Below are positions 703 to 27,229 of a stretch of 45,467 bases of DNA, piece by piece (the stretch's first letter is position 1; each line of letters starts with the position of its first letter). Below the pieces are notes generated by a model that saw only the letters and a program-made list of their open reading frames with translations, ran no database searches and was not told the DNA's origin. This DNA comes from a virus: positions 1 through 45,467 of IMG/VR virus record IMGVR_UViG_3300018954_000018; one strand, given 5' to 3'. Both the position numbers and the translations under genes were made by a program.

Positions 703-1004
703 CGGCTGCCCCGCCGGATGCGGCGGCGCATCCGGGCCTCGGACCGGAAGACCCGGTACAGCAGCCCGGCCAGGGCAAGAGCGGCCAGGCCGACCAACAC
801 CGGTGCCACCCCGGGGCCCGCGCTGGCCGGCGCCTCGACCGCCACCTCGACGGCTGGCACCTGCGCTCGCGGCGCGTAGGCGTACACCAGCAGGGCAGCC
901 AGGGCCACCGTCCCGGCGCCGACGATCCACCGGCCGTACAGCGTCCAGATCGGCCAGCGCGACCCGAGGGTCTGGTTCGCGGCGCGTCGACGGTCCTCGT
1001 TCAT
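699..1004 (-). CDS. small two-helix membrane protein of the transfer operon
   Basis: 101 residues from ATG at 1002-1004. Two hydrophobic helices (about residues 27-44 and 65-83) are separated by an Ala/Pro/Val-rich stretch, and the C-terminus is very basic (RMRRRIRRGSR), presumably cytoplasmic. No enzymatic motif is seen. It sits between a hypothetical gene (21 bases upstream) and the Spd-like gene, which it overlaps by 4 bases, so the two are probably translationally coupled. Small membrane proteins of this kind are common in actinobacterial spd/tra clusters. A role in transfer or spread is inferred from position alone. Confidence 0.7.
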   Translation of the reverse strand: MNEDRRRAANQTLGSRWPIWTLYGRWIVGAGTVALAALLVYAYAPRAQVPAVEVAVEAPASAGPGVAPVLVGLAALALAGLLYRVFRSEARMRRRIRRGSR

Positions 1005-1470: not shown

Positions 1471-1607
1471 CTTGGTCGGTGGTTTGGTCGGTGCCGGTCG
1501 ATCGTTTGGTCGGTCCATGCGTTTCCGCAGGTCAGAGGCGACCGACCAAGCGGAGGGCCGACCAAGTGCCCCTAGGGGAAAGAGGCGCGACCGACCAAGT
1601 TGGTCGG
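1471..1607. repeat. cluster of seven TTGGTCGG repeats, candidate clt/TraB recognition site
   Basis: Seven perfect copies of the 8-mer TTGGTCGG lie in the non-coding gap between the TraB-like gene and the next gene. Direct copies are at 1472, 1484, 1506 and 1600; inverted copies (CCGACCAA) start at 1542, 1558 and 1591. The last two copies form the 17-bp palindrome CCGACCAAGTTGGTCGG (1591-1607). A 10-bp palindrome CCCCTAGGGG lies inside the cluster (1569-1578). Streptomyces TraB proteins bind 8-bp repeats in a clt locus next to traB through a C-terminal winged helix. The position and repeat length match that arrangement, but the sequence differs from the TRS I know. An iteron origin or partition site is the main alternative. 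Confidence 0.7.
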
Positions 1608-4820: not shown

Positions 4821-5018
4821 GTGACGCCCGTGCATCACCTCGTCGGCGTCCGCGAGATCATGGCCATGTTCCGCTTGTCGCGACAGCGCGTGGACCAGCT
4901 CGCCGCCGAGCCCGACTTCCCCGTGCCCACGGCCACGCTCGCGCAGGGCCGCGTGTGGGAGCGCACCGACATCGAGGACTGGGCCCGCAGCACCGGCCGC
5001 GAGATCGCCGACTCCTGA
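4821..5018 (+). CDS. AlpA/MerR-type helix-turn-helix regulator
   Basis: 65 residues from GTG at 4821, placed 10-14 bases after a GGAGGGGGG run; upstream in-frame ATGs lie in or next to the operator and would remove that spacing. The sequence VGVREIMAMFRLSRQRVDQL is a compact winged HTH followed by the Arg-Val-Trp wing typical of AlpA/excisionase-like proteins (GRVWERTDIEDW). Such proteins regulate transcription or direct excision. It is divergent from the transfer operon and likely acts at the two intergenic palindromes. It could instead be the recombination directionality factor. Confidence 0.75.
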   Translation: MTPVHHLVGVREIMAMFRLSRQRVDQLAAEPDFPVPTATLAQGRVWERTDIEDWARSTGREIADS

Positions 5019-5526: not shown

Positions 5527-5762
5527 GTGATTCATCACGCTGCGCGTCCGACTGATGAGGCGCGTCCGCCGAACGGCCGGGACGGACAGCGCCGCCCCAC
5601 CCCAGACCTCGGGGGCGACCGGAGTCGCGGGGTGGGGCGGCGCGTTGGGCGGCGCCATCGGCGGAAGGGCTCGGGGGTCGACCTCCACCGACGGCGCCGG
5701 CTCGGCGATCCGTGGAAGTGATTCACGGATACGGAGCACCTTGCCCCGAATCGGTGAATCAC
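5527..5762. promoter_or_regulatory. non-coding control region with GTGATTCA operators
   Basis: The gap between the divergent secreted-protein and repressor genes contains three related sites: GTGATTCATCAC (5527-5538), GTGATTCAC (5718-5726) and its inverted copy GTGAATCAC (5754-5762). The second also lies within a hairpin ATCCGTG...CACGGAT (5709-5731). Two more sites occur at 8578 and 43810. Placement around the XRE gene suggests these are its operators. The rest of the gap shows no convincing gene. Confidence 0.6.
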
Positions 5763-5808
5763 GCTAGTCCTTCGGGAGAACTCGCCTCTGACCTGCAACG
5801 GTGCGCCG

Positions 5809-6063
5809 GTGTCCGACCGCCTCGCGCTCGACCTCGCCCGCGCCGTCCGCGCCGAGCGGGCACGCGCCGGCCTGTCCCAGTCCGAGCTTGCCGAGCGGAT
5901 GGGCGTGCACCGGAACGTCATCTGGAAGATCGAGTCCACCGAGCGGCGGGTCAACGCCGACGAGCTCCCTGAGCTGTGCGCCGCGCTCGGCGTGACCCTG
6001 GCCCAGCTCCTCGCCCGGGCCGACCCGGACGACCTGCGCCGCCTCGGCCTGCCGGTCCCGTAG
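5809..6063 (+). CDS. XRE-family helix-turn-helix repressor
   Basis: 84 residues from GTG at 5809. The classic Cro/CI HTH is clear at about residues 20-60 (GLSQSELAERMGVHRNVIWK, then VNADELPELCAALGV). No oligomerisation or cleavage domain follows, so it is shorter than lambda-type repressors. No ribosome binding site precedes it, so it may be leaderless. It is preceded by paired GTGATTCAC sites and followed by attP and the integrase gene, which is the usual immunity/integration arrangement of small actinophages. Likely the lysogeny repressor or a regulator of integration. Confidence 0.8.
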   Translation: MSDRLALDLARAVRAERARAGLSQSELAERMGVHRNVIWKIESTERRVNADELPELCAALGVTLAQLLARADPDDLRRLGLPVP

Positions 6064-11317: not shown

Positions 11318-11680
11318 GTGGCCGAGACGTGCACGAAGTGCTCCGCACCCGTCAAGTACGTCCTGACGGTCGGCGGTCGCCGTGTGCCCCTCGAGCCGGA
11401 CCCGCACCCCGCCGGCACCCACGTACCCGTCAAGGTCGGCGGCCAGACCCGCTCCCGGGTCCTCGGCGGCGGGGAGCTGCCCGCCCAGGAACCCGCGTGG
11501 CGCGACCACCGCACCACCTGCTCCGCCGGGAAGCACGCCAGCGACCGCGCTGCCCGCCTGCGACCGAAGTGCCGCGTCTGCACGAAGCCGATGGACCCCG
11601 AGCTCGCCTACCTCGAGCAGTGGGAGACCCACCCCTCATGTGACCCCGCCCACCACACCGACGAGACGAGGACCGCGTGA
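11318..11680 (+). CDS. zinc-finger protein
   Basis: 120 residues from GTG 11318. Cysteine pairs appear at both ends: CTKCSAP near the N-terminus and CRVCTKP with a later THPSCDP. An intervening beta-rich segment and CSAGKH complete two likely zinc sites. This pattern recurs in actinophage early proteins of unknown role. Its stop overlaps the methyltransferase start (GTGA). Confidence 0.62.
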   Translation: MAETCTKCSAPVKYVLTVGGRRVPLEPDPHPAGTHVPVKVGGQTRSRVLGGGELPAQEPAWRDHRTTCSAGKHASDRAARLRPKCRVCTKPMDPELAYLEQWETHPSCDPAHHTDETRTA

Positions 11681-13252
11681 GCACGACCACCCTCGACGAG
11701 CGCATCGTCCTGGAGGCCTTCGCCGGCCCCGGCGGCTGGTCAACCGGCCTGCGCATGCTCGACCAGCCCTGCCGCAGCATCGGCGTCGAGTGGGACCGCG
11801 ACGCCTGCCGCACTGCCCACGCCGCCGGGCACCTGCGCGTCCGCGCCGACGTCGCCCGCTTCGACCTGACCGAGCTCGCCGCCGTCTGGCTCCTCATCAT
11901 GTCGCCGCCCTGCCAGGCGTGGTCCCGGTCCGGGAAGCGCAAGGGCATCCTCGACCAGGCCGCGATCTTCCAGCACGCCCAGCGCGTCACCGGCGCCGGC
12001 CGGTGGCTGCCCTACACCGACGCCGGCCCGCTCCCAGCCGGAGAGGGCGACGGCGGCGGCACCTGGAACGACGCGCGCTCCCCGCTGGTCCTTGAGGTGC
12101 TGCGCTGGGTGCTCGCCGTCCAGCCCGCCCACATCGCTCTCGAGCAGGTCCCGGATGTCCTGCCGTTCTGGCACCTGATCGCCCGCTGGCTGCGGGGGCT
12201 CGGGTACAACGCATGGGCCGGGGCGCTGTCCGCCGAGCGGTACGGCGTCCCCCAGACCCGGGAGCGGGCGATCCTCATCGCGTCGCGCGAGCGGGCGGTC
12301 ACCGCCCCGGCCGCCACGCACACGGCCTACGACAGCCGGCTCCCGGACGGCGGACGATGGCACGGCGCCGACGGCGACCTGTTCGGCGGCGGCCTCGCCC
12401 CCTGGGTGTCGATGGCCGACGCGCTGGGATGGACCCCTGCCGTCGTGGTGAACACCCGCGGGGACAGGCAGACCCCCGGCGGGAACGAGTTCAGCGCCGA
12501 CCGGCCCTCCTGGGCGCTCACGGAGAAGACCCGGTCCTGGACCGTCCGGACCGGCAACAACACCACCGCGACCGACGGGTCGAAGGGGCTGCAGCGCTAC
12601 GAGCGGCCTGTCGACCACCCAGCGCCGGCCCTAGACACGAACGTCGGCGCGAAGTGGCGGGTCGGGATGGGCGATGTCCGCCAGGCCAACGGGACCGTCC
12701 GCGCGACGGACGAACCCGCCGGGACCATCACCGCGTCCCTCGACAACGGCAACCACCGCTGGCTCCTGCACACCAACCGCGACCAGCGCCCTGACGGCAC
12801 ACGCCAGGTCATCGACCCCTCCGAGCGGCCAGCCCCGACCCTGACCGCCAAGTCGGGCGGGCAGTGGGTCTACGTCAACGGCAACCAGGCCAACGCCGGT
12901 CCGGCGCGACATCACCGAGCCTGCCCCGACGGTCATGTTCGGCGAGCGATCGAACAAGGTCGAGTGGGTGCACGAGCGTCCAGCTACCACCGTCGCGGGT
13001 GACCCGCGTATCGCCGAACCCGGCCACCGCGACCGAGAGGGCGGCCGGGCGCGGTTCGACGGCGACTCCATCCGCGTCACCGTCGAGGAAGCCGCCGTCC
13101 TGCAGAGCTTCCCGCCGGCCTACCCGTGGCAGGGCACCAAGTCCGCGCGGTTCCGCCAGGTCGGTGACGCCGTCCCCCCGCTGCTCTCCGCTCACGTCCT
13201 CGCCGCCGTCCTCGGTGTCCCCGCACCGACGCACCAAGAGGTGAGCGCCTGA
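11677..13252 (+). CDS. C5-cytosine DNA methyltransferase, interrupted by a frameshift
   Basis: The first frame (GTG 11677 to stop 13002) has AdoMet motif I (EAFAGPGGWSTGL), catalytic motif IV SPPCQAW with Cys79, motif VI ALEQVPD and motif VIII QTRERAILIA, then a target region with repeated AxTLT/AGTIT units. The C-terminal motifs IX-X (VLQSFPPAYPW, FRQVGDAVPP) lie in another frame that ends at 13252. The junction lies near 12893-12902. Removing one base (the T at 12900) would give a continuous protein of about 524 residues. Either this is a broken gene, a sequencing error, or an unusual frameshift. Such enzymes protect phage DNA from host restriction. Confidence 0.85.
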
Positions 13253-13404
13253 TGCCCCGCCACTGCCAGTGCTCGTCCACGACCCGGTGCTGCCCCGTCC
13301 TGGGCCACCCCGGGCACATCACCCCCCACCGCTGGTGCCTCAACGCCGACCTGACCCGACCCACCACGCCCACCGCGGGGCCAGCACCGAGGAGCAACCG
13401 ATGA
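13252..13404 (+). CDS. 50-residue Cys/His-rich protein
   Basis: ATG 13252 overlaps the methyltransferase stop (TGATG), and the stop overlaps the next ATG (ATGA). The N-terminal half has five cysteines and several histidines (RHCQCSSTTRCCPVLGH, then HRWC), suggesting zinc binding. The tail is Pro/Thr-rich. Found only by its overlaps and composition; function unknown. Confidence 0.55.
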   Translation: MPRHCQCSSTTRCCPVLGHPGHITPHRWCLNADLTRPTTPTAGPAPRSNR

Positions 13405-14252
13405 CCTGGTTCAAGGTCGACGACAAGCTGCACGACCACCGCAAGCGCCGCCTCGCCGGCCTGCCTGCGATGGGCCTGTGGGCCGTCGCCGGCTCCTGGT
13501 CGGCCGACAACGACACGTACGGCTTCATCCCCGCCGACGTGGTCGGCCGCTGGGCCGGGAACGCCCGGGCGCTCGCCAAGAAGCTCGTCGATGTCGGCCT
13601 GTGGGTGCCCACCGAGCAGGACGGCGAGGCTGGGTGGCGCTTCCACGACTGGGACGACTTCCAGCCGACGAAGGCCGAGCGGGAGGCCGACAAGGCCGCC
13701 GCCCGTGAGCGGATGCGTGCCGTTCGGGCCGCCAGAGCAGGCCGGGGCTCGACCCCGGCCGAGCCTCCCGGTTCGGAACCTGTTCGGGCGAACACCGAAC
13801 GAACCGGCGGCGAAGTTCGCCCTGAGTTCGTTCTGCCCCGGCCCGGCCCGGCCCGACCCGACCCGAATACCTACCTACTCACCCTCGTGTCTCGGCTGGC
13901 GGCAGGTGACGCGCGCGGAAATGCGCCGCCGCCGGCCGAGGTCATCGCTTCATGGCAGGAGACGGCAGGGCCGGACATCGAGCTCAACACCGAGGCCCGG
14001 GAGTACCTCGCCCGGTTCGGGGACCGCCCGCCCCGTGACGAGCGCGGCGCCTGGCTCGGCTGGCTCCGCAAGGCCAACGAGCGCGCGGCCACGGCCACCG
14101 ACCGCGACCCGGCCACCGGCCGCCCCCTGCGCCTCGTCGCGACCTGCACGCACCCCGACTGCCTCGACGGTTGGGCGGGGGAGGACGACCAGGGCCGGCC
14201 CCGCCCGTGCCCGAGCTGCAAGCCCCGCGCCTCGGCCGTCGAGGCGTCCTGA
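13401..14252 (+). CDS. DnaD-like phage replication protein
   Basis: 283 residues from ATG 13401. The N-terminal 110 residues (MTWFKVDDKLHDHRKRRLAG, MGLWAVAGSWSADN, then FHDWDDFQPTKAERE) match the winged-helix replication-initiation proteins common in actinophages. A variable Pro/Arg-rich linker with a GGCCC-type DNA run follows (residues about 110-160), then a helical C-terminal region and a terminal zinc-like motif (CTHPDCLDGW...CPSC). Probably recruits host helicase to the phage origin. The next gene encodes a nuclease, consistent with a replication block. Confidence 0.72.
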   Translation: MTWFKVDDKLHDHRKRRLAGLPAMGLWAVAGSWSADNDTYGFIPADVVGRWAGNARALAKKLVDVGLWVPTEQDGEAGWRFHDWDDFQPTKAEREADKAAARERMRAVRAARAGRGSTPAEPPGSEPVRANTERTGGEVRPEFVLPRPGPARPDPNTYLLTLVSRLAAGDARGNAPPPAEVIASWQETAGPDIELNTEAREYLARFGDRPPRDERGAWLGWLRKANERAATATDRDPATGRPLRLVATCTHPDCLDGWAGEDDQGRPRPCPSCKPRASAVEAS

Positions 14253-14299
14253 CCCGCCAGCACCACCCCGCGCCCGCCACCACCGAACGGAGCACCACC

Positions 14300-14845
14300 A
14301 TGCCGACGCCGACCCGCAAGCGCAGGGGCGCTCAGACCCAGATGCTCGTCACCCGCTGGCTCGCCGCCCACGGCTTCCCGTACGCCACCGACGCCGGTGC
14401 TGGCCGGGGCGGCCGGGACATCATGAACGTGGTCGGCCTCGCGATCGAGGTCAAGGCGCGCCGGGACCTCTCCCTGCCGTCCTGGCTCCGGCAGGCGGTC
14501 GCCGCGGCCGGCCTCGACGTCCCGGTCGTCATCCACCGCCCCGACGGCTTCGGCCCTACCTCGCTGCCCGACTGGCCCGTCACCATGCGCCTCGCCGACT
14601 GGACGCACCTCGTCCGGCAGGCCGGCTACGGCGACCCCCTCGCGCCCCTCCCCGGGACGGACGGCGTGCCGATCACCCCCGAGCAGCTGCGCCACGCGGT
14701 CACGTTCCTCATGCAGCACTGGGAGACCATCGACGGCGACGCGAAGTACCTCGGGGACTGGATCGCCGAGATCCTCTGGCTGGGCCTGCACCAGCCGCCG
14801 AACACCGAGCCCGCCGCCGCGCCGGGCACCGAGGGCCAGGGATGA
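14300..14845 (+). CDS. PD-(D/E)XK nuclease, Holliday-junction resolvase/VRR-type
   Basis: 181 residues from ATG 14300. Basic N-terminus (PTRKRRGAQTQ), then the nuclease core: DAGAGRGGRDI with the metal-binding Asp, followed by LAIEVKARRD carrying the E-x-K catalytic pair. The C-terminal half is an extra helical domain. Proteins of this type resolve branched DNA in phage replication and recombination. It follows the DnaD-like gene and overlaps the next gene by 4 bases. Confidence 0.72.
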   Translation: MPTPTRKRRGAQTQMLVTRWLAAHGFPYATDAGAGRGGRDIMNVVGLAIEVKARRDLSLPSWLRQAVAAAGLDVPVVIHRPDGFGPTSLPDWPVTMRLADWTHLVRQAGYGDPLAPLPGTDGVPITPEQLRHAVTFLMQHWETIDGDAKYLGDWIAEILWLGLHQPPNTEPAAAPGTEGQG

Positions 14846-15666
14846 GCGCCCCCCGGTGCCCCTGCGGAGCCCCCACCGGCTCCGGCGGCTTCCTCTGCTC
14901 CGACTGCACCGGCAAGCTGCAGACCCGCCTCGAGCTGGTGCCCGACCTCCTCGAGGAGCTCGCCACCACCCAGGCCCGCCAGGGACGCGCCGACCCCGGC
15001 GGGAAGCGCACCGACGTCTCGCCGATGCCGCACCTCGTCGCCGCCGAGGCCGCCGTCACCCTGCGCCGGCTCGTCGGCCGGTCAGCCACAGCGCTCGCCG
15101 CGGCGCTCGCGGGCGAGGCGGCCGACTCCGGCCCGGGCCGCGCGCCCGCGGCCTGGCTCGCCCGCCACGTCGGCGCCGTCCGCCACCGCGACTGGGCGCC
15201 GGCCCTCGCCGTCGACCTCAAGGCCGCCAGCGATCAGGGGTGGCGCGTCATCGACCGGCCCGAGGAGCTCTGGTACGCCGGACCCTGCGGCGGCTCGATC
15301 CGGCAACCCGACGGCTTCCTCGAGTGCGGCTGGAAGCTCTGGGCCCGCCTCGATGAACCGATGATCAAGTGCCGGAACTGCCACACCACCTGGGACGTGC
15401 TCGCCCGCCGGAAGTGGCTGTCCGAGGCCGGCCGCGCCCACCTCGAGAGCGCCGGCGTCATCGCCTCCGCCGTCACGATCATGCGCCGCCGCCGGCTCCC
15501 CGCCTCCACGATCCGCAGCTGGGCCCACCGCGGCCACCTCGCCGCGATGGGCACATACGACGGCCGCACGCTCTACCGCGTCGGCGACGTCCTCGACCTG
15601 CTCGAGCAGTCCGAGCGCGACCCCGACTCCCTCGACGACACCACCCTGATCGGAGCTCCAGCGTGA
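14842..15666 (+). CDS. zinc-binding DNA-binding protein with MerR-like HTH
   Basis: 274 residues from ATG 14842 (ATGA). The N-terminus has a zinc ribbon (CPCGAP...FLCSDC), the middle another Cys group (GPCGG, LECGWK, CRNCHTTWD), and the C-terminus a MerR/AlpA-type HTH (LPASTIRSWAHRGHLAAMGT, then LYRVGDVLDLL). This domain order is frequent in actinophage early regions. It probably binds DNA as a regulator; the target is unknown. Confidence 0.65.
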   Translation: MSAPRCPCGAPTGSGGFLCSDCTGKLQTRLELVPDLLEELATTQARQGRADPGGKRTDVSPMPHLVAAEAAVTLRRLVGRSATALAAALAGEAADSGPGRAPAAWLARHVGAVRHRDWAPALAVDLKAASDQGWRVIDRPEELWYAGPCGGSIRQPDGFLECGWKLWARLDEPMIKCRNCHTTWDVLARRKWLSEAGRAHLESAGVIASAVTIMRRRRLPASTIRSWAHRGHLAAMGTYDGRTLYRVGDVLDLLEQSERDPDSLDDTTLIGAPA

Positions 15667-16145
15667 CCCCAACGACCCCCGATACCGCCGCCGCGCCCAC
15701 CCAGCGCGCATGGTTCGACCTGGTACCCGAGAACGGGACACCGGAAGGCACCGTCGCGCAGATGGCCGCCTACGCCATCGCCCACGGCCGCGCCCACAGT
15801 GACCGCCTCCGCGTCATCTTCAACACCTACGACATCGACGACAGCCACCGGTCACAGGAACTAGACGACGCGATCCGCGCCACCAACCGCCACAACCTCT
15901 GGCCCTACACCGCCGCCTTCACCGCCGCGGCGCTGGCGAGGGGGTGGACCACCCAGGACGCCGCCGACGTGCTCGCCAACGACGCAGAAGCGTGCGACGA
16001 CCTGCTTTACGAGTGGGCCAACGAAGCGGGAATTGACCCGGACAGCGTGGCGTCTGCCGACGACGTCATCACCACCGGCTACGGCGTCTCCGGCGCCGAG
16101 TGGGCACGTCTCCGCGGCGTCGAGAAGCAGCAGGTCCCGGCGTGA
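15663..16145 (+). CDS. hypothetical protein
   Basis: 160 residues from GTG 15663, overlapping the previous stop (GTGA) and the next start. Acidic, mostly helical, no cysteine pairs except one C in a D/A-rich stretch; no motif was recognised. Its position before the MazG-like gene places it in the early metabolism block. Confidence 0.6.
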   Translation: MTPTTPDTAAAPTQRAWFDLVPENGTPEGTVAQMAAYAIAHGRAHSDRLRVIFNTYDIDDSHRSQELDDAIRATNRHNLWPYTAAFTAAALARGWTTQDAADVLANDAEACDDLLYEWANEAGIDPDSVASADDVITTGYGVSGAEWARLRGVEKQQVPA

Positions 16146-16474
16146 CGCACTCCGTGCTTGATGAAGTCGGCCGTGAGCGGCTTCGGCAGGACGCGAAGTG
16201 GGGCGAGCAGAACCACCCCGACGGCACCGGGCCCGACATCCGCTGGCTCCAGCGCCACACCGCCGGCCCCCGCGCCGCCTTCCTCGCCAACCACTTCCGC
16301 GCCCGATGCCAGGCGAACGGCCCCGAGGCGGACAACTGGCGGGACATCCTGCTCGAGGAGGTCGCGGAGGCCTTCGCCGAGGACGACCCCGACCATCTCC
16401 GCGCCGAGCTGGTGCAGATCGCCGCCACCGCCGTCCAGTGGATCGAGGCCATCGACCGACGCGCAGCCTCGTGA
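16142..16474 (+). CDS. MazG-like nucleoside triphosphate pyrophosphohydrolase
   Basis: 110 residues from GTG 16142. The start DEVGRERLRQDAKWGEQNHP and the acidic helix DILLEEVAEAFAEDDPDHLR with EL...WIEAI are typical of short phage MazG/all-alpha NTP-pyrophosphatases. The E-E-x-x-E pattern would bind magnesium. Such enzymes adjust nucleotide pools or lower alarmone levels during infection. The assignment rests on motif and length. Confidence 0.72.
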   Translation: MTHSVLDEVGRERLRQDAKWGEQNHPDGTGPDIRWLQRHTAGPRAAFLANHFRARCQANGPEADNWRDILLEEVAEAFAEDDPDHLRAELVQIAATAVQWIEAIDRRAAS

Positions 16475-16505
16475 CGGCGGCCTGCCGCCGGGGCACACTG
16501 GTCCG

Positions 16506-16784
16506 ATGGTCAGCGCTCGACGGAAGGCCGAGGACAGCCTCGCCGGGTTCCGCGCCCGCCTCGCCGCCGAGCGAGCCGACGAGGACCCGCAGGACAGGCT
16601 CCCGCGGCACTGTTGGGTCATCGACCCACCCGGCCACCTCGGCCGGTGGCCGGGCGTCGTCCTGCAGTGGCGCCGCGGTGAGGCCGGCTGGGAGGGCCGC
16701 ACGGTGTACGGGGTGACCACCCTCAAGGGAGACCCGGCGGTCGTGCAGGGCTGGCTACCCGCCACGCACCTCGCGCCTGCTTGA
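16506..16784 (+). CDS. small hypothetical protein
   Basis: 92 residues from ATG 16506. A basic N-terminal helix is followed by a Trp-rich beta domain (RWPGVVLQWRRGEAGWEGR). Not recognised. Its stop codon is embedded in the -35 box of the next promoter. Confidence 0.58.
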   Translation: MVSARRKAEDSLAGFRARLAAERADEDPQDRLPRHCWVIDPPGHLGRWPGVVLQWRRGEAGWEGRTVYGVTTLKGDPAVVQGWLPATHLAPA

Positions 16785-16840
16785 CAATGCTCTGACCTGC
16801 TGCAACAGTCTCGACTATCTAATCGCGAGAGCTGTCAGAG
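16781..16840 (+). promoter_or_regulatory. promoter with structured leader before HNH/terminase block
   Basis: TTGACA (16781-16786), 17-base spacer, AACAGT (16804-16809). The same segment folds: CTCTGAC (16790-16796) pairs with GTCAGAG (16834-16840), and inside it TCTCG (16809-16813) pairs with CGAGA (16826-16830). The element may be a late promoter or a structured regulatory RNA; the two readings overlap. Confidence 0.5.
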
Positions 16841-16899
16841 AGGCTCGTCACCGCTCCTCCGGTGCCGGGCCTCACTGCATGCCCGCCCAGGAGGCGTCG

Positions 16900-17226
16900 A
16901 TGCGGGCACCGCGCCGATCCCCAGGACGCTCCGGTCCGGCATGGACCGCGCTCGCCGCTCGAGTGCGGCGCGAGGAGCGCGAGTGCGCGTACTGCAACGT
17001 CGAAGTGATCTACGACGTACCCATCGGGCACCCTCAGCGGGGAACCGTCGACCACATCATCCCGCTGGGACAGGGCGGCGCCCCCCTCGCCAGGGACAAC
17101 GTCTGCTGCGCATGCCACCGCTGCAACGTGGCCAAGGGCGAGCGCACCCCTGAGCAGTGGCGTGCAGCGCAGGCCGCCGACACCAGGCAGGCACCCTCCG
17201 AAGACCCCCTCTGGACCAAGGTGTAG
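16900..17226 (+). CDS. HNH homing-type endonuclease
   Basis: 108 residues; ATG 16900 is chosen for the AGGAGG five bases upstream. Core motifs: CAYC, VDHIIPLGQGG with the HNH His, DNVCCACHRCNVAKG with the second zinc pair and Asn. HNH proteins next to terminase genes take part in DNA packaging by cutting at the cos end, together with the large terminase. The position 0.5 kb before terS fits a cos-type packaging system. Confidence 0.88.
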   Translation: MRAPRRSPGRSGPAWTALAARVRREERECAYCNVEVIYDVPIGHPQRGTVDHIIPLGQGGAPLARDNVCCACHRCNVAKGERTPEQWRAAQAADTRQAPSEDPLWTKV

Positions 17227-17242
17227 CGCCCATGCTGGGCAC

Positions 17243-17548
17243 GTGAAGGCGTTCGCATGGTGGCGCGACGAGCCCACCCTCCTCGAGCAGGCCAAGGCCA
17301 CCATGCTCGAAGCCGACGACCTGTTCGGGCGTCACCGTGCATGGGACGCCGAGGTGGTGCGCCTGCTGCAGAGCACGTACATCGACCCGCGTATGCAGGT
17401 GGCTGCCCCTCGCCGGCCCTGCAGGCACGAAGGGTGCGAGCACCGGGTTGACCTGCACCGTGAAGGCGCAGGACAGGGGTGCAGCGTGGACGGATGCCTC
17501 TGCCTCGACACCCCTGAGCTCGCATCACGCTCCCGTCGAGGCGACTGA
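17243..17548 (+). CDS. hypothetical protein between HNH and terminase
   Basis: 101 residues from GTG 17243. The first 50 residues are helical (TLLEQAKATMLEADDLFGRH). The second half has a Cys/His-rich group (CRHEGCEHRV...GCSVDGCLC) that could bind zinc. No known family. It stands between two packaging genes and may be part of that module. Confidence 0.55.
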   Translation: MKAFAWWRDEPTLLEQAKATMLEADDLFGRHRAWDAEVVRLLQSTYIDPRMQVAAPRRPCRHEGCEHRVDLHREGAGQGCSVDGCLCLDTPELASRSRRGD

Positions 17549-17746
17549 GCCAAGCCCCCATCCGGCCCTCCCGGCCGAGAGTTTTTGGATCATGGACCTC
17601 CATGACCCCGCTCCCTGTCGAAGAATCTCACCGGAGCGTGACGGGGGGACCTGCATCACCTCCTGAACGACCGTGAGCGCGCTCGAAGCGCCTCAGAACC
17701 CGCCCGCTGGTACCTCGGGTACCCCTGGAGTCGCAGAGGGGCGCAC
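17549..17746. terminator. short hairpin terminator and packaging-gene leader
   Basis: A 5-bp GC stem (CGGCC 17563-17567, GGCCG 17573-17577) is followed by GAGTTTTT, the best intrinsic terminator in the window. The rest holds a GGTACC-TCG-GGTACC repeat (17710-17724) and the leader of terS. No gene is seen. A cos site could lie in this gap, since it separates HNH from terminase; no cos consensus is evident. Confidence 0.5.
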
Positions 17747-18160
17747 ATGGCTTCGCGCAAGCCCATGACGATCCGCCTCGACGACGGCGTGCACGATGCG
17801 CTGGCCGCCGAGGCCGAGGAGCACGGCCGGACCCCGGCCGCGCACGTCGCCGCCCTGGTCGAGGCCGCGCTCGGCGCCGAGACCGTCGGATTCGCCGGCT
17901 ACGTCGAGGCCGAGACCCGCAAGGACATCGACGCGATGTTCACCGGGCACCCGATGGGTGACGCGCTGGCCGCCGTCGCGATCACCCTCGCCCGGACCCT
18001 CGACGACGGCGCCGGCATGGCGACCGCCGCGGTGGCGAAGCAGCTGGTCGCGACCCTCGTCGAGCTGGCGCGATACGAGGACGGGAGCACCGACGATGAC
18101 GATGCTCCGGACCTCGGCGGCCCCGCGATGGGCGACGAGGAGGACGCCGAGCCGGCCTAG
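17747..18160 (+). CDS. terS: terminase small subunit (putative)
   Basis: 137 residues from ATG 17747. The N-terminus is ribbon-helix-helix-like (RKPMTIRLDDGVHDALAAEA) and gives way to a helical middle and an acidic tail (DDDDAPDL...DEEDAEPA). It directly precedes and overlaps the large terminase gene by 65 bases, as usual for small subunits, which recognise the packaging site. RHH-type regulators would look similar; position decides. Confidence 0.72.
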   Translation: MASRKPMTIRLDDGVHDALAAEAEEHGRTPAAHVAALVEAALGAETVGFAGYVEAETRKDIDAMFTGHPMGDALAAVAITLARTLDDGAGMATAAVAKQLVATLVELARYEDGSTDDDDAPDLGGPAMGDEEDAEPA

Positions 18161-19559
18161 CCTGGGCAAGCAGGCCGCCGAGCTCACGAAGTGGGGCCTC
18201 GGCCGCGACTTCATGCCGTGGCAGCGTCAGGTCGCCGACGTTGCGCTCGAGATCGACCCGGCGACGAATCTGCCCGCGTACCGCACGGTGGTCCTCACCG
18301 TCCCGCGGCAGTCCGGGAAGTCGACGCTGCTCCTGAGCGTCTTCCTGCAGCGCTGCATGTCGACGTTCTGGTCGAGCACCAGCCGCCCGGGCGGCGCGCC
18401 GGGCCGGCAGCGGTGCCTCTACACCGCTCAGACCCAGAAGGACGCCCGCGAGAAGTGGGAAGACGACTACGTCACCGACCTCGAGGCGAGCGACAAGCTG
18501 CGCGGCAGGTTCCGGGTCTCCCGTGCGAGCGGCCGCGAGCAGATCCGGTTCACGAACGGCTCGTCGGTCGGGATCTCAGCCAGCACGGAGAAGGCCGGGC
18601 ACGGCAAGGTGCTCGACCTGCCCGTCGTCGACGAGGCCTTCGCGCAGGTCGACGACCGGCTCGACCAGGCCTTCGTCCCGGCCATGTCGACGCGCCGGCA
18701 GGCGCAGCTCTGGGTCGTCTCGACCGCCGGCTCGCCGGAGTCGCTGTACCTCAAGGCGAAGGTCGACGCGGGACGGCGCCTGGTCGAGAACGAGACGACG
18801 TCGGGCCTGGCCTACTTCGAGTGGAGCGCACCCGAGGACGCCGACCCGGACGACGAGGACGCATGGGCGCGCTGCATGCCCGCCCTCGGCCACACCATCG
18901 ACCTCGAGGTCGTGCGCTCGGCCCGCCTGAGCCTGAGCGCCGTCGAGTTCCGGCGGGCCTACCTGAACCAGTGGGTCGACCGGCACGCCGGCGAGCGGGT
19001 CATCCGGGCCGACGACTGGAACCGCTGCTACGACCCGGAGTCGGTCATCGACTCGAAGCTCGTGATCGCCCTCGACGTGGCCCTCGACCGGCAGATGTCC
19101 GCGGTGTCGGCCGCCGGCCGCCGCAGCGACGGCGGCACGCACATCCAGGTCGTGCGGCATGGCCACGGCACCGACTGGGTGGTGCCGTACGCCGTCGAGC
19201 TGGCGAAGTCGCGTCGCGCGGTCGCCGTGGTGCTCGACCCGTCCGGCCCGGCCGGCTCGCTGATCCCGGATCTGCTCGCCGCCGGTGTCGAGCCGGTGGT
19301 CACCACCGCCCGCGACATGGTGCAGGCGTGCGGCGCGTTCTACGACGCCGCGACGACCACGACCCTGCGGCACCGCCGACAGCCACCGCTCGAGCAGGCC
19401 CTCGCGTCCGCTCGCCGCCGCGAGCTCGGCGACGCCTGGGCGTGGGGCCGACGCCAGTCCGGCGCCGACATCACCCCCCTGGTCGCGTGCACGCTCGCGC
19501 ACTGGGGAGTCGCGACCCGTGCGGCACGCACGTACGACCCGCTGCAGAGCTTCTACTGA
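18096..19559 (+). CDS. terL: terminase large subunit
   Basis: 487 residues; ATG 18096 is used (a later start would cut into the ATPase domain). Walker A VPRQSGKST with Lys75, Walker B VVDEA with Asp179/Glu180, then the RuvC-like nuclease domain (VIALDVALDRQ, VVLDPSGPAG, and QSGADITPLV near the end). Pumps DNA into the prohead and cuts it. Standard length and domain order; overlaps terS. Confidence 0.93.
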   Translation: MTMLRTSAAPRWATRRTPSRPSLGKQAAELTKWGLGRDFMPWQRQVADVALEIDPATNLPAYRTVVLTVPRQSGKSTLLLSVFLQRCMSTFWSSTSRPGGAPGRQRCLYTAQTQKDAREKWEDDYVTDLEASDKLRGRFRVSRASGREQIRFTNGSSVGISASTEKAGHGKVLDLPVVDEAFAQVDDRLDQAFVPAMSTRRQAQLWVVSTAGSPESLYLKAKVDAGRRLVENETTSGLAYFEWSAPEDADPDDEDAWARCMPALGHTIDLEVVRSARLSLSAVEFRRAYLNQWVDRHAGERVIRADDWNRCYDPESVIDSKLVIALDVALDRQMSAVSAAGRRSDGGTHIQVVRHGHGTDWVVPYAVELAKSRRAVAVVLDPSGPAGSLIPDLLAAGVEPVVTTARDMVQACGAFYDAATTTTLRHRRQPPLEQALASARRRELGDAWAWGRRQSGADITPLVACTLAHWGVATRAARTYDPLQSFY

Positions 19560-19573
19560 CCGGGAGGTCGACC

Positions 19574-19774
19574 ATGATCGCCCGTGTCACCACCGGCCTC
19601 GAGGTGCTCGGCATCCTCGTGCTCACCACCGCCCTCGGCCTGGCCGTCCACCAGCGCGCCGGACTGATCTGGGCACTGGTCGCAGCTGGGCTGGCCCTGT
19701 TCGCGTGGAGCTGGGTCGTCGAGCTCGTCCGCGGTGAGCCCCGGCACCGGCCGCCCCAGCGGGGAGCCTCGTGA
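19574..19774 (+). CDS. small two-helix membrane protein
   Basis: 66 residues; GGAGG six bases before ATG 19574. Two hydrophobic helices (about 10-25 and 30-50) with a short basic tail. Sits between terL and portal with a 4-base overlap to the latter. Function unknown; small membrane proteins at this place occur in actinophages. Confidence 0.65.
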   Translation: MIARVTTGLEVLGILVLTTALGLAVHQRAGLIWALVAAGLALFAWSWVVELVRGEPRHRPPQRGAS

Positions 19775-20928
19775 GCCTGTTCCGCCGCCCGAAGACCGAG
19801 ACCCGGATGATGAGCGCCACCGAGGCGTTCGCGATGGGCCTCGACCAGCGGGCCCGCGACTCCTCAAGCCTGGTCCCTCTATTCGCCGCGCACCGTGTGA
19901 TCATCGACGCCGTGGCGGCGACGCCGCTGCACCGCTACCGCGACCAGCCGGACGGTTCCAAGGTCCGACTCCCCTCGACGGACCTGTTCCGGGACCGCGA
20001 CCGGACGGCGTTCAGCTTCAAGGCCCGGTGCGTCGCGTCGTTGCTCTACGACGGCAACGCCTTCGGGTACATCACCAGCCGCGACGCGACCGGCTGGCCG
20101 TCCGGGATGGTCTGGCTCGATCCCCGCCGGACGAAGGTCGAAGACCGCGACGGTGTGCCGGCCTACTTCTTCGATGACCGGCGCCTGAGCCTCGACGAGG
20201 TTGTGCACGTCCCCTGGATCACCGAGCCCGGCAAGCACCGCGGGATCTCCCCGCTGGCCGCCTTCAAGTCCGCGTTCGAGACCGGCGTCGCCGCGCAGCG
20301 GACGGCGTACGACTGGTTCGAGAACGGCGCGATCCCGAGCGTGCACGTCCGCAACACCGAGATGACGATCGACCCCGCCCAGAGTGACGCGCTCAAGCAG
20401 CGGTACAAGGCCTCCGTGCACGGGCGCGACGTGCTCCTGACCGGCTCCGACTGGGAGATCACGACGATCGGCGTCCCGGCCGACCAGGCGCAGTTCATCG
20501 AGACGATGAAGCTCACGGCGACGCAGGTCGCCACGATCTACGGCGTCCCGCCGGAGGAGATCGGTGGCGAGACCGGCAACTCGCTGACGTACAAGACCCT
20601 CGAGCAGACCGAGCTCCGCTTCAACGCCCGCGTAGTGCGTCCGTGGGCGACGCGCATCGAGGAGCACCTCACCGCGCAGCTGCCCCGCGGGCAGTACGCC
20701 CGCTTCAACCTCGACGCGAACGTCCGGGCCGACCTGATGTCCCGCTCGCAGGCCCACGCGATCAACCTCGGCACCGGCGTGATCACCCTCGACGAGGCCC
20801 GCCTGCTCGAGGATCGCGCCCCGCTCACCCCGGCGCAGCGCCAGCGCTGGACCGAGGACTACGGCAAGCAGCCGGCGCCCGCCGGCGACCCCGCCACGAC
20901 ACCGAAGGGCGGCGATGATGACGACTGA
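19771..20928 (+). CDS. portal protein, HK97 type
   Basis: 385 residues from GTG 19771 (GGGGAG upstream). Conserved portal segments: FKARCVASLLYDGNAFGY, EVVHVPWITEPGKHRGISPL, FIETMKLTATQVATIYGVPP and a C-terminal acidic tail. Forms the dodecameric ring at the capsid vertex through which DNA enters. Length and order (terL-portal-protease-capsid) are standard. Confidence 0.92.
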   Translation: MSLFRRPKTETRMMSATEAFAMGLDQRARDSSSLVPLFAAHRVIIDAVAATPLHRYRDQPDGSKVRLPSTDLFRDRDRTAFSFKARCVASLLYDGNAFGYITSRDATGWPSGMVWLDPRRTKVEDRDGVPAYFFDDRRLSLDEVVHVPWITEPGKHRGISPLAAFKSAFETGVAAQRTAYDWFENGAIPSVHVRNTEMTIDPAQSDALKQRYKASVHGRDVLLTGSDWEITTIGVPADQAQFIETMKLTATQVATIYGVPPEEIGGETGNSLTYKTLEQTELRFNARVVRPWATRIEEHLTAQLPRGQYARFNLDANVRADLMSRSQAHAINLGTGVITLDEARLLEDRAPLTPAQRQRWTEDYGKQPAPAGDPATTPKGGDDDD

Positions 20929-21628
20929 ACGCCGCACCACGACCGGCACCGTCCAGCTCCGGGCGGGCACCGACGCGGGCATGGGCAAGCTCGGCGGCTA
21001 CGCGCTGAAGTTCAACACCTACTCGCAGAACCTCGGCGGCTACGTCGAGTCGTGCGCCCCCGGGCTGGTCGACGAGGCCACCCTGCGCGGTGAGCGCGGC
21101 GACGTGGTCGCCCGGTACCAGCACGACGACCTGTTCCTGCTCGGCCGGCAGGTCTCCGAGACGCTCCGGCTGTCCGCGGACGGCACCGGCATCGACTACG
21201 AGGTCGACCTGCCGGAGACCGGCTACGCGCGCGACCTCGCCGCCCTGGCGAAGCGTGGCGACGTCCGGTACTCGTCGTTCGCCTTCCGAGTCCTCGAGGA
21301 CGAGTGGACGTACACCGAGCAGGACTTCCCGCTCCGGGTGCTGCGCTCGATCCAGCTCGTCGACGTCGCCCCGGTGGTCAACCCCGCGTACCTCGACACC
21401 TCGACCGGTCTCCGCTCGCTCGCCGAGCAGCGGGGACTCGACCTCGCCGCGGTGACGAAGGCCGCCGAGGTGAACAAGCTCGGCGTCCTCCTGCGGGAGG
21501 GCACCGCCGCGGTCATCGACCTGAAGCCGACGGGACAGGGCGCCACCCACCCCGACGGTGACCAGTCGTTGCGCCGGATGCGTGCAGCCGTCCGTCTGCG
21601 CGCGCGACACCCCAGCACCGCCCTCTGA
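20915..21628 (+). CDS. prohead protease (HK97 U35/S78 type)
   Basis: 237 residues from ATG 20915, overlapping the portal gene by 14 bases. The catalytic His is in RYQHDDLFLLG (His70) and the catalytic Ser in VRYSSFAFRV (Ser120/121). A C-terminal extension is Arg-rich and probably disordered. Cleaves the scaffold domain of the major capsid protein during maturation. Confidence 0.9.
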   Translation: MMTTERRTTTGTVQLRAGTDAGMGKLGGYALKFNTYSQNLGGYVESCAPGLVDEATLRGERGDVVARYQHDDLFLLGRQVSETLRLSADGTGIDYEVDLPETGYARDLAALAKRGDVRYSSFAFRVLEDEWTYTEQDFPLRVLRSIQLVDVAPVVNPAYLDTSTGLRSLAEQRGLDLAAVTKAAEVNKLGVLLREGTAAVIDLKPTGQGATHPDGDQSLRRMRAAVRLRARHPSTAL

Positions 21629-21718
21629 CGGCAGGGCGACACCCACCGTCACAACCCCTGTTCCTGGCCCGCTCGGCATCACCGCTCGGGCCCCTCGTCA
21701 TGCCCTGGAGGGCACGCC

Positions 21719-22960
21719 ATGTCCGAACTGATCAAGACCCTGATCGAGCGCCGAGCGAACACCTTCCGCGGCATGCAGGAGGTGCTCGAGCGCGCCGAGT
21801 CCGAGAACCGCGACCCCTCGGTCGAGGAGCAGACCGACTTCGAGGCCCGCACCGCCGAGCTCGACCGGATCGACCAGCGGATCGAGACGCTGACCAAGGC
21901 CGCCCAGCGCGACGCCGACATCACCGCCTCGTTCCGCTCCCTGAACGAGCGCGAGCAGCAGAACCCGCGCGAGGAGGAGCGCCGCGGCGACGGCCCGGCG
22001 GTCGCCTCGCAGCTGCGGTCGATGTTCTCGGGCGAGACCCGCGGCTTCGAGATCAAGCCGTCGAAGGCGACCGACGTCGCCACCCCGGAGGCCCGCGCGC
22101 TGTCGAAGCTGACCGCCGGCGCCGGCGGCAACCTCGTCTACCCGACCTTCTACGACCGCCTGTTCGAGCACATGATCGAGACCTCGGCGATCATGTCGCG
22201 CGCCACGATCATGCGGACGGCGACCGGCGAGCCGATCGTCATGCCCAAGGTCACCAGCTTCTCGACCGCCGCCCTGGTCGCCGAGCTGGGCACCATCCCC
22301 CAGTCCGACCCGGCGTTCGCGCAGGCGACCCTCTCGGCCTACAAGTACGGCGTCATGCTCCAGCTCTCGCACGAGCTGATCAACGACACCGGCTTCGACC
22401 TGGAGGGGTTCGTCTCGCGCCAGGCGGGGCGCGCGGTCGGCATGGCCTTCGACGCGCACCTGATGAACGGCACCGGCACGAACCAGCCGACCGGCCTGAT
22501 GACCTCGGTCACCGTCGGGAAGACCGGCGGCACCGGCGTCGGTGGCGCGTTCACGGTCGACGACCTGATCGACCTGAAGTACAGCGTCACCACGCCGTAC
22601 CGCCCCGGGGCCGGATGGATGATGCGCGACTCCTCGGTCGGCGCCATGCGCAAGCTCAAGTCGGCGCAGGGCGTCTACCTCTGGGAGCCCGGCCTGCAGG
22701 TCGGCGCGCCGAACCGCTTCGACGGCGACCCGGTGTACGCCGAGATGTCGATGCCGGCGGTCGCCCTGAACGCCAACAGCGTGCTGTACGGCGACTACGA
22801 GGCCTACACCGTCCGCCTCGTCGAGGCGATGCGCTTCGAGCGTTCGACGGACTTCGCCTTCAACACCGACGCCGAGACCTACCGCTGCCTGCTGCGCGGC
22901 GACGGCTTCCTGCTCGACACCACCGGCGCGATCAAGGCCTTCAAGGGCGGCGCGAGCTGA
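21719..22960 (+). CDS. major capsid protein, HK97 fold
   Basis: 413 residues, GGAGGG upstream of ATG 21719. The N-terminal 110 residues form a charged coiled-coil scaffold (RRANTFRGMQEVLERAES, EQTDFEARTAELDRIDQRIE) that the protease removes. The rest has HK97 capsid sequence (YPTFYDRLFEHMIETSAIMS, MNGTGTNQPTGLM, EAMRFERSTDFAFNTDA). Builds the icosahedral head. Confidence 0.94.
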   Translation: MSELIKTLIERRANTFRGMQEVLERAESENRDPSVEEQTDFEARTAELDRIDQRIETLTKAAQRDADITASFRSLNEREQQNPREEERRGDGPAVASQLRSMFSGETRGFEIKPSKATDVATPEARALSKLTAGAGGNLVYPTFYDRLFEHMIETSAIMSRATIMRTATGEPIVMPKVTSFSTAALVAELGTIPQSDPAFAQATLSAYKYGVMLQLSHELINDTGFDLEGFVSRQAGRAVGMAFDAHLMNGTGTNQPTGLMTSVTVGKTGGTGVGGAFTVDDLIDLKYSVTTPYRPGAGWMMRDSSVGAMRKLKSAQGVYLWEPGLQVGAPNRFDGDPVYAEMSMPAVALNANSVLYGDYEAYTVRLVEAMRFERSTDFAFNTDAETYRCLLRGDGFLLDTTGAIKAFKGGAS

Positions 22961-25975: not shown

Positions 25976-27229
25976 ATGGACCTGGGAACCGCGAAGACGC
26001 AGGCCCGGGACATCTACAACTCGTGGAAGACCGCCATGCTGTCCCAAGGCGGCATGCCTGCCGGCCTGTCCGGTCAGAACGCCTGGCGCGTCGTTCGTCC
26101 CGGGGACGGCAACGACACCGTGTCCGAGGGCATCGCCTACGGCCTCCTCCTCACGGCGATCTGGGGCAACCCAGCGTTGCCGGCAGGCCTGTACGACTCT
26201 GGCGCGCAAGCGATCTTCGACGGGCTCTGGAAGTATTACCATCACTTCAAGAATGCCAATGGCATCATGGACTGGAAGATCTCTGCCAGTGGCGTAAAGA
26301 TCGGATTCGGCGGCGCAACCGACGGCGACGTAGATGCAGCAATGGCGCTCCTCATGGCGCATCGCATCTGGGGATCGGGCGGGGCGATCAACTACGGAGC
26401 CGCCGCGACTACGCTTATCAACGCTATCCGGGACTTCGAGATCACGCCGGCGAACCACAGCCAGCCGAACGTGATGAAGAACGGCGACATGACGCCGTGG
26501 ACGAATACCGACCAGCGGTACAACCCCGACTACTGGTTCCCGGCTTACACATGGGAGTTTGAGAAGCACACAAGCGACACCCGGTGGACTGCCATTCGTA
26601 CCGTGAACAACGCGATCGTGAACTACTTCAATACCAACTTCACCACCGGCATGGTCCCCAACGAATGCAATCGTGACGGGACCAACTCCAACTCCATGCC
26701 GGGCGGGCTCCCCGCGTACCAGTTCGGGTACAACTCCGTGCGCCTCTGGCGCCTGTACCTCGATCTGTACTGGAACGGCCCGACCGCGGCCCCGGTTGCG
26801 CAGGCCATGGCGAACAAGCTCGGCAACTGGTCGAAGGGCCAGGTCGGCGGTGCTTTCCCGGGCAATCTCGGCGGGGTCTACAACCTCGACGGGACCGGCA
26901 AGCAGCAGCCGCTCTACCTGGCCTTCGCCTCGGTCTACGGTGCTGCCGCCTGCGGCTCGGCGGACTCCAGCAACTCCGCGCACGCCGCAAGCATCTTGAA
27001 CTGGCTGCACGCGAACCGCGGTGGCGGCGACTACTTCGGCGGCTCGAACTCCGCTGTCGTCGCGGCGATCATGGCCGGCGTCTTCTACCCCGGCACCGTG
27101 ACGGCTCCCACCACCGTCATCAGCGGTGGCACGCCCGCGACGGTGTTCAGCGACGTGATCAGCGGCGGCACGCCCAGCACGGCGTTCGCGAACGTCATCA
27201 GCGGCGGGGCCCCGAGCACCTTCGCCTGA
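25976..27229 (+). CDS. GH8 family glycoside hydrolase
   Basis: 417 residues from ATG 25976. GH8 signatures: VSEGIAYGLLL with Glu51 and the TDGDVDAAMALLMAHRIWG segment with Asp116/Asp118. Length fits endoglucanase, chitosanase or xylanase. No signal peptide and no ribosome binding site precede the ATG, and the frame is the same as that of the upstream GH26-like gene, with only one TGA between (25925-25927). The C-terminus carries a VISGGTP repeat. GC is lower than in the surrounding genes (for example 26230-26290), suggesting recent acquisition. It may be made by readthrough, or as a separate protein by reinitiation. Confidence 0.8.
   Translation: MDLGTAKTQARDIYNSWKTAMLSQGGMPAGLSGQNAWRVVRPGDGNDTVSEGIAYGLLLTAIWGNPALPAGLYDSGAQAIFDGLWKYYHHFKNANGIMDWKISASGVKIGFGGATDGDVDAAMALLMAHRIWGSGGAINYGAAATTLINAIRDFEITPANHSQPNVMKNGDMTPWTNTDQRYNPDYWFPAYTWEFEKHTSDTRWTAIRTVNNAIVNYFNTNFTTGMVPNECNRDGTNSNSMPGGLPAYQFGYNSVRLWRLYLDLYWNGPTAAPVAQAMANKLGNWSKGQVGGAFPGNLGGVYNLDGTGKQQPLYLAFASVYGAAACGSADSSNSAHAASILNWLHANRGGGDYFGGSNSAVVAAIMAGVFYPGTVTAPTTVISGGTPATVFSDVISGGTPSTAFANVISGGAPSTFA
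27116..27226 (+). repeat. 13-residue tandem repeat at the GH8 C-terminus
   Basis: Three consecutive units of 39, 39 and 33 bases (27116, 27155, 27194) encode VISGGTPATVFSD, VISGGTPSTAFAN and VISGGAPSTFA. Short Gly/Pro/Ser repeats of this kind end many phage fibres, which suggests the GH8 protein is virion-attached. Confidence 0.75.

Follow-up and report, generated by a model that had tools for sequence, protein, structure and literature searches.

In the window, by which we mean the whole stretch of viral DNA analyzed (45,467 bp), the gap 3' of traB carries a cluster of 8-bp repeats that we propose, with a probability of roughly 85%, to be a clt in which a new TraB recognition sequence (TRS) serves an already known mechanism. 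This proposal is based on the layout shared with 57 of 87 traB loci, on the position of the pJV1 and pWTY27 clt repeats at the same place, on a recognition helix devoid of its usual tryptophan and on the lack of the window's word behind the 86 other traB genes. The coincidence with pJV1 and pWTY27 is the strongest of these arguments. A candidate clt had already been put forward in the preliminary description, and its place 3' of traB, its 8-bp unit, its seven copies (equal to the median of related clusters), its TraB neighbor and the predicted winged helix of that protein all support it. The features concerned are the following (coordinates in the window, strand, feature).

1-702, minus: P0003, membrane protein truncated at the window end, presumably spread-like as judged from its position and hydrophobicity
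1025-1453, minus: P0002, small protein resembling transfer/spread proteins, encoded downstream of the repeats; L066 and L067 have homologs 3' of theirs
1472-1479, plus: putative TRS copy TTGGTCGG (CCGACCAA when read in the direction of traB), exact 8-mer count
1484-1491, plus: putative TRS copy TTGGTCGG, exact 8-mer count
1506-1513, plus: putative TRS copy TTGGTCGG, exact 8-mer count
about 1519-1539, minus: 21-mer GCCTCTGACCTGCGGAAACGC holding CTGACCTG (1528-1535), a box common to many clts and actinophage right ends
1542-1549, minus: putative TRS copy TTGGTCGG, inverted, exact 8-mer count
1558-1565, minus: putative TRS copy TTGGTCGG, inverted, exact 8-mer count
1569-1578, no strand: CCCCTAGGGG palindrome between TRS copies; CCT(T)AGG-type palindromes are similarly placed in related clts
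1591-1598, minus: putative TRS copy TTGGTCGG, forming the left arm of the 17-bp palindrome, exact 8-mer count
1600-1607, plus: putative TRS copy TTGGTCGG, forming the right arm of the 17-bp palindrome and lying 1 bp away from the traB stop codon
1609-3996, minus: traB, 795-aa FtsK-like translocase with Walker A motif GMAGAGKT and, at the C-terminus, a predicted winged helix with about RPALTRRLRKLVDSG as its recognition helix
6275-7420, plus: tyrosine integrase
17796-19559, plus: large terminase, with which the phage head genes begin

Counted over both strands, TTGGTCGG occurs nine times in the window against an expectation of 1.7, a number never reached in 100 shuffles. Seven of these exact copies, four on the plus and three on the minus strand, are clustered at 1472-1607; the two stray copies, at 790-797 (minus) and 40719-40726 (plus), both lie within ORFs. 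The preliminary description had given the same four direct and three inverted copies and the same two extra copies inside genes, and the 17-bp palindrome and CCCCTAGGGG it included in the cluster were found again at 1591-1607 (as CCGACCAAgTTGGTCGG) and 1569-1578. When the whole window was shuffled 200 times with dinucleotides preserved and copies were counted without overlap per 146 bp, the best exact 8-mer cluster held three copies (175 shuffles) or four (25 shuffles), compared to seven in the window itself, and none of its other 400-bp stretches contains seven copies of an 8-mer. The gap spans 146 bp (1463-1608) between the traB stop codon and the start of P0002, with a GC content of 64% compared to 72% for the window. 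Large ORFs crossing it were rejected as genes, as they are alternative frames of GC-rich DNA. Its strand folds better as RNA than shuffles do (z -3.9), an excess that is explained by the inverted repeats. The gap thus presents what characterizes a clt with its TRS, a non-coding cluster of repeats of about 8 bp beside a tra gene. Searching genome-wide for paired TTGGTCGG yielded mostly coding or tandem repeats and was uninformative.

The product of traB has the FtsK-like motor, the Walker A motif and, by inspection, the N-terminal membrane segments of a TraB protein. It matches the NCBIfam model NF041214 (plasmid_TraB) over residues 42-552 with E=1.3e-113, a score below the model's curated cut-off, and shares 26-35% identity with TraB of Streptomyces and other actinobacterial plasmids, including 33% with pCQ4 TraB, where the Walker A motif is conserved. 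The Pfam FtsK_SpoIIIE model gave no match. A further match is to PHROG 24831 (E 8.6e-65), a family of unassigned function that, judged from sequence, can probably be named TraB-like. AlphaFold, supplied with an alignment of 32 rows, modeled the last 116 residues with a pLDDT of 83 and the order helix-strand-helix-helix-strand-strand of a winged helix. Structural neighbors of this model are mostly winged helices, with Z up to 7.6, a range in which common arrangements can score; Foldseek alone found no match in the PDB at E below 0.001. The winged-helix-like end noted earlier is therefore borne out at the level of predicted structure, and with it the C-terminal domain typical of TraB. Calmodulins returned by a PDB sequence search with the C-terminal profile were discarded as an artefact of acidic low-complexity sequence.

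In the TraB protein of pSVH1, helix alpha3 of the winged helix reads repeated 8-bp motifs (PMC3583192, PMC4170104). The window shares with pSVH1 the 8-bp units and the TraB winged helix, while the pSVH1 word itself lies outside our comparison. The recognition helix in the window has alanine at the position where most relatives carry tryptophan, and reads RPALTRRLRKL instead of SRxW..xxL. The tryptophan is also missing in a small clade consisting of L040, L066, L067 and L068.

To place the cluster among its relatives, we compared 87 traB loci, drawn from plasmids, genomes and viral contigs and differing in their 3' regions. From each we took the sequence between 60 bp ahead of the traB stop and 340 bp beyond it, and shuffled it 60 times. 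The window's TraB as sole query returned no related loci from the viral contigs, which were reached only with an alignment of the TraB family, and no TraB was found with it in 50,697 deposited phage records. An exact 8-mer cluster beyond all 60 shuffles is present 3' of traB in 57/87 loci. When one mismatch is tolerated, significance in the 3' stretch is reached by 35/87, compared to 0/87 for one-mismatch clusters in 400-bp in-gene controls (the figure of 57 refers to exact clusters). The stretch tested holds no significant exact cluster in the remaining 30 loci, some of which have diverged repeats, some a cluster further away and some frameshifted ends. The first copy usually lies within a few bp of the traB stop (median offset 8 bp), and clusters have a median of seven copies when one mismatch is counted.

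The layout is conserved and the word is not. The best 8-mer takes the form of 34 distinct words across the loci, with group-specific ones such as CTGACACC, CCGCACA, CGGAACAG, GTGGCACC, CGTGACACC, CCGTGACA, GTCCAAACC and GGCCAACC. A cluster of CCGACCAA is absent from the 86 other loci, the nearest words being GGCCAACC (L110) and GTCCAAAC (L103). The suspicion that the repeat may embody a new specificity is thereby strengthened for the 87 loci compared. Three other loci (L018, L022 and L023) encode a TraB of the SRSWVSGQ type with the candidate TRS TCTGACAC/GACACCCC behind traB, a group to which, we assume, pSAM2 perhaps belongs. If it does, TCTGACAC/GACACCCC predicts the clt of this model AICE, for which none has been described (PMC9513070).

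Two published systems tie this position to transfer. The clt repeat of pJV1, CCGCACA[C/G][C/G], for which inverted repeats were reported as well (PMC3583192), is found exactly in the 3' stretch of its traB (L013). That of pWTY27, four copies of TGACACC bound by the TraB-like TraA in footprints and needed for transfer (PMC3583192), lies 3' of traB in pCQ4 and an Amycolatopsis plasmid (L009, L011). Similar to the window, the pJV1 clt (nine repeats) is a cluster of 8-9-bp repeats starting right behind a traB whose product belongs to the same family (about 31% identity), yet its word differs, repeats of the pJV1 group run mostly one way compared to the 4/3 division here, and its carrier is a plasmid instead of a phage. 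The pWTY27 clt likewise begins inside or behind the tra gene; it uses another word, and its binding and role in transfer are experimental findings where those of the window are inferred.

Reader and repeat vary together over the loci. Loci with similar winged helices tend to have similar repeats (r 0.60, Mantel p 0.001), as do loci with similar motor domains (r 0.63, Mantel p 0.001). A weak correlation with the winged helix is left once the motor domain is accounted for (partial Mantel r 0.10, p 0.039). At the sequence level, these correlations show that reader and address travel together; they do not resolve which residue pairs with which base. In the comparison of related elements suggested at the outset, the cluster is kept with another 8-mer that tracks TraB; co-variation of helix and repeat beyond ancestry is only weak. 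Mixed repeat orientation (four and three) is uncommon, as the median majority fraction over the loci is 0.8, but the window has it in common with its closest clade, L066 and L067, which also encode P0002 homologs behind their repeats (35% identity over 82 aa, E 3e-12, and 30%, E 8e-5, respectively). L040, a close TraB relative, uses the different repeat CCTGACAC.

By analogy with the known Streptomyces plasmids, TraB would be the reader of the repeats: its subunits would attach to the CCGACCAA copies through their winged-helix C-terminus and form a hexamer on the circular double-stranded DNA of the element, which they would pump into a neighboring cell or hyphal compartment. FtsK and SpoIIIE, too, are ring ATPases whose DNA-reading end is a winged helix and whose recognition words are 8 bp long. 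Their orienting sequences are scattered over chromosomes, whereas the words of the window are grouped at one spot by the gene.

The main rival of a clt is a replication origin, in which the repeats would be iterons recognized by a replication ATPase whose tail is a winged helix, and would lie beside traB by position alone. We consider this improbable, though it is the rival that deserves most attention, since the same arrangement is seen with AAA_25 replication ATPases that end in a winged helix. In L082, a phage without TraB, four copies of TTGGTCGG (470-640) directly follow an AAA_25/Toprim gene, and 10/19 homologs of this protein have, immediately 3' of their gene, a significant 8-mer cluster specific to the member concerned, compared to 0/19 controls. 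A cluster of their own 3' of the gene accompanies AAA_25 (often Toprim) ATPases with winged-helix-like ends in L082, L244-L248, L274, L276, L278, L280 and L286, and these clusters are probably replication iterons. The AAA_25 relative L246 has DnaA boxes in the gap 3' of its gene, and L277 contains three copies of the published pWTY27 iteron GTGGGAAC (PMC3583192), a number also reached by shuffles. A repeat cluster next to a winged-helix ATPase therefore does not by itself mean a clt. L082 is also the only one of 15 viral matches to the 17-bp palindrome that has a cluster; the other 14 lack further copies nearby and look like chance. Iteron initiators such as pWTY27 RepA (PMC3583192) and the AAA_25 ATPases resemble TraB in being adjoined by their own repeat cluster and differ in serving replication, not transfer, with DnaA boxes in one case (L246). 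For the window, in contrast, the adjoining gene is traB, beside which clusters have been published as clt, the gap still has 64% GC, and DnaA boxes are absent from this gap as from all 87 traB gaps; the initiator neighbor with DnaA boxes or an AT-rich stretch expected of an iteron origin is thus missing here. Iteron origins without DnaA boxes do exist. Given the TraB neighbor and the lack of a DnaA box, we regard a clt as much likelier than iterons for the window.

That the repeats are operators of a repressor controlling P0002 and its downstream neighbors is less probable still. The gap does lie upstream of P0002, inverted repeats are typical of operators, and a separate operator-like set (GTGATTCAC-type, 5527-5762) near an HTH gene indicates that such regulation exists in the window; but seven copies over 136 bp exceed the usual number for an operator, and the layout recurs behind distant traB genes that have other downstream genes. 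The separate set comprises GTGATTCA, GTGATTCAC and GTGAATCAC at 5527-5534, 5718-5726 and 5754-5762, close to the HTH gene (5809-6063), and is a candidate operator set for a lysogeny or transfer repressor. A 19-nt inverted repeat (5035-5053/5058-5076, 95% complementary, 4-nt loop) closely follows the end, at 5018, of a small HTH-like gene and is likely a terminator.

Two further elements accompany the repeats of the putative clt. CCCCTAGGGG occurs once in the window (expected 0.03), and CCT(T)AGG-type palindromes are present in 22/87 traB gaps where 0.026 are expected per 340 bp of the same loci, an excess that is only descriptive because the pattern was picked after being seen. The whole clade of the window has them (CCCCTAGGGG, GCCTAGGGGAT, CCCTTAGGGGAT, CCCCTTAGGGGAT, CCCCTTTAGGGGAT and GCCTAAAGGGAT). 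An essential inverted repeat is mentioned for the clt of pIJ101 (PMC3583192), of which these palindromes could be the counterpart. The second element, absent from the preliminary description, is the 21-mer GCCTCTGACCTGCGGAAACGC with its CTGACCTG, the latter being present in 31/87 traB gaps compared to 4% of control stretches (again a pattern chosen after being seen). The 37 bases around the 21-mer are matched in 589 phage records and, among the matches listed, it mostly lies 30-160 bp from the right end of actinophage genomes in non-coding DNA. Despite its enrichment in traB gaps, CTGACCTG was dropped as a clt-specific second element, and we do not call it part of the clt because it is also widespread at these genome ends. 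The 21-bp box occurs in other intergenic places too, twice beside tRNA-like sequence (L028, L038). The box core CTCTGACCTGC recurs in the window at 5785-5795 and 16789-16799 (both plus). A phage cos or packaging region in the gap, as suggested by the non-coding position of the 21-mer about 30-160 bp from many actinophage right ends, is very improbable, since CTGACCTG is also found in clts of plasmids and AICE-like loci and the CTCTGACCTGC copy at 16789, just upstream of the HNH-like and terminase genes, occupies the usual place of cos, which it may mark.

The carrier of traB is a tailed phage of soil actinobacteria, as evidenced by the large terminase at the start of the head genes; portal, head protease, tail and tape-measure genes follow from 17.8 kb on. 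The tyrosine integrase indicates that it probably integrates. Neither att sites nor a tRNA were identified in the window. An AICE combines integrase, TraB and a plasmid-type replication initiator without virion genes, whereas virion genes are present here. A contig from another metagenome (L073, 1-10907) matches window positions 11,334-22,240 at 100% identity, its last 91 bases being unmatched; at the sequence level this supports the phage part of the window, and the contig stops short of traB. A glycosyl hydrolase family 8 domain (PF01270, E 1.6e-26) is encoded at 25976-27229 among the tail genes, possibly as part of a tail depolymerase. Other viral records combine both gene sets: 24/33 with a TraB relative hold a large terminase (PHROG 9 or 2), a count that is only indicative as isolate-derived viral records may merge neighboring elements, and a Phage_portal family match is found in 9/33 (8 over the cut-off). 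A distance of 2.4 kb separates traB from the terminase in L040, a related record. The plasmid-phage pZL12 (PMC4487206), for which a tra requirement is mentioned (PMC3583192), similarly combines phage genes with a conjugation gene; compared by description, it differs in that the window has a tyrosine integrase.

In summary, transfer by TraB requires one protein and one site, and, to our knowledge, few such sites have been mapped so far. With the site readable from sequence in 57 elements, candidate pairs of reader and address become available. A broader pattern, of more interest as a lead than the proposed clt of the window itself, may be the self-addressed winged-helix ATPase: ring ATPases of this kind in actinobacterial mobile elements (TraB, AAA_25) would each keep a private 8-bp address behind their own gene and diversify along with it, and the TraB of the window and the unrelated ATPase of L082 would have converged on TTGGTCGG. 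We put this forward as a tentative idea that is rather unlikely to hold as a whole; if the TTGGTCGG address is indeed common to both, the pump or initiator of one phage could act on the DNA of the other. TraB-type modules and their sites recur in records of tailed phages, an indication that some phages have two modes of spread.
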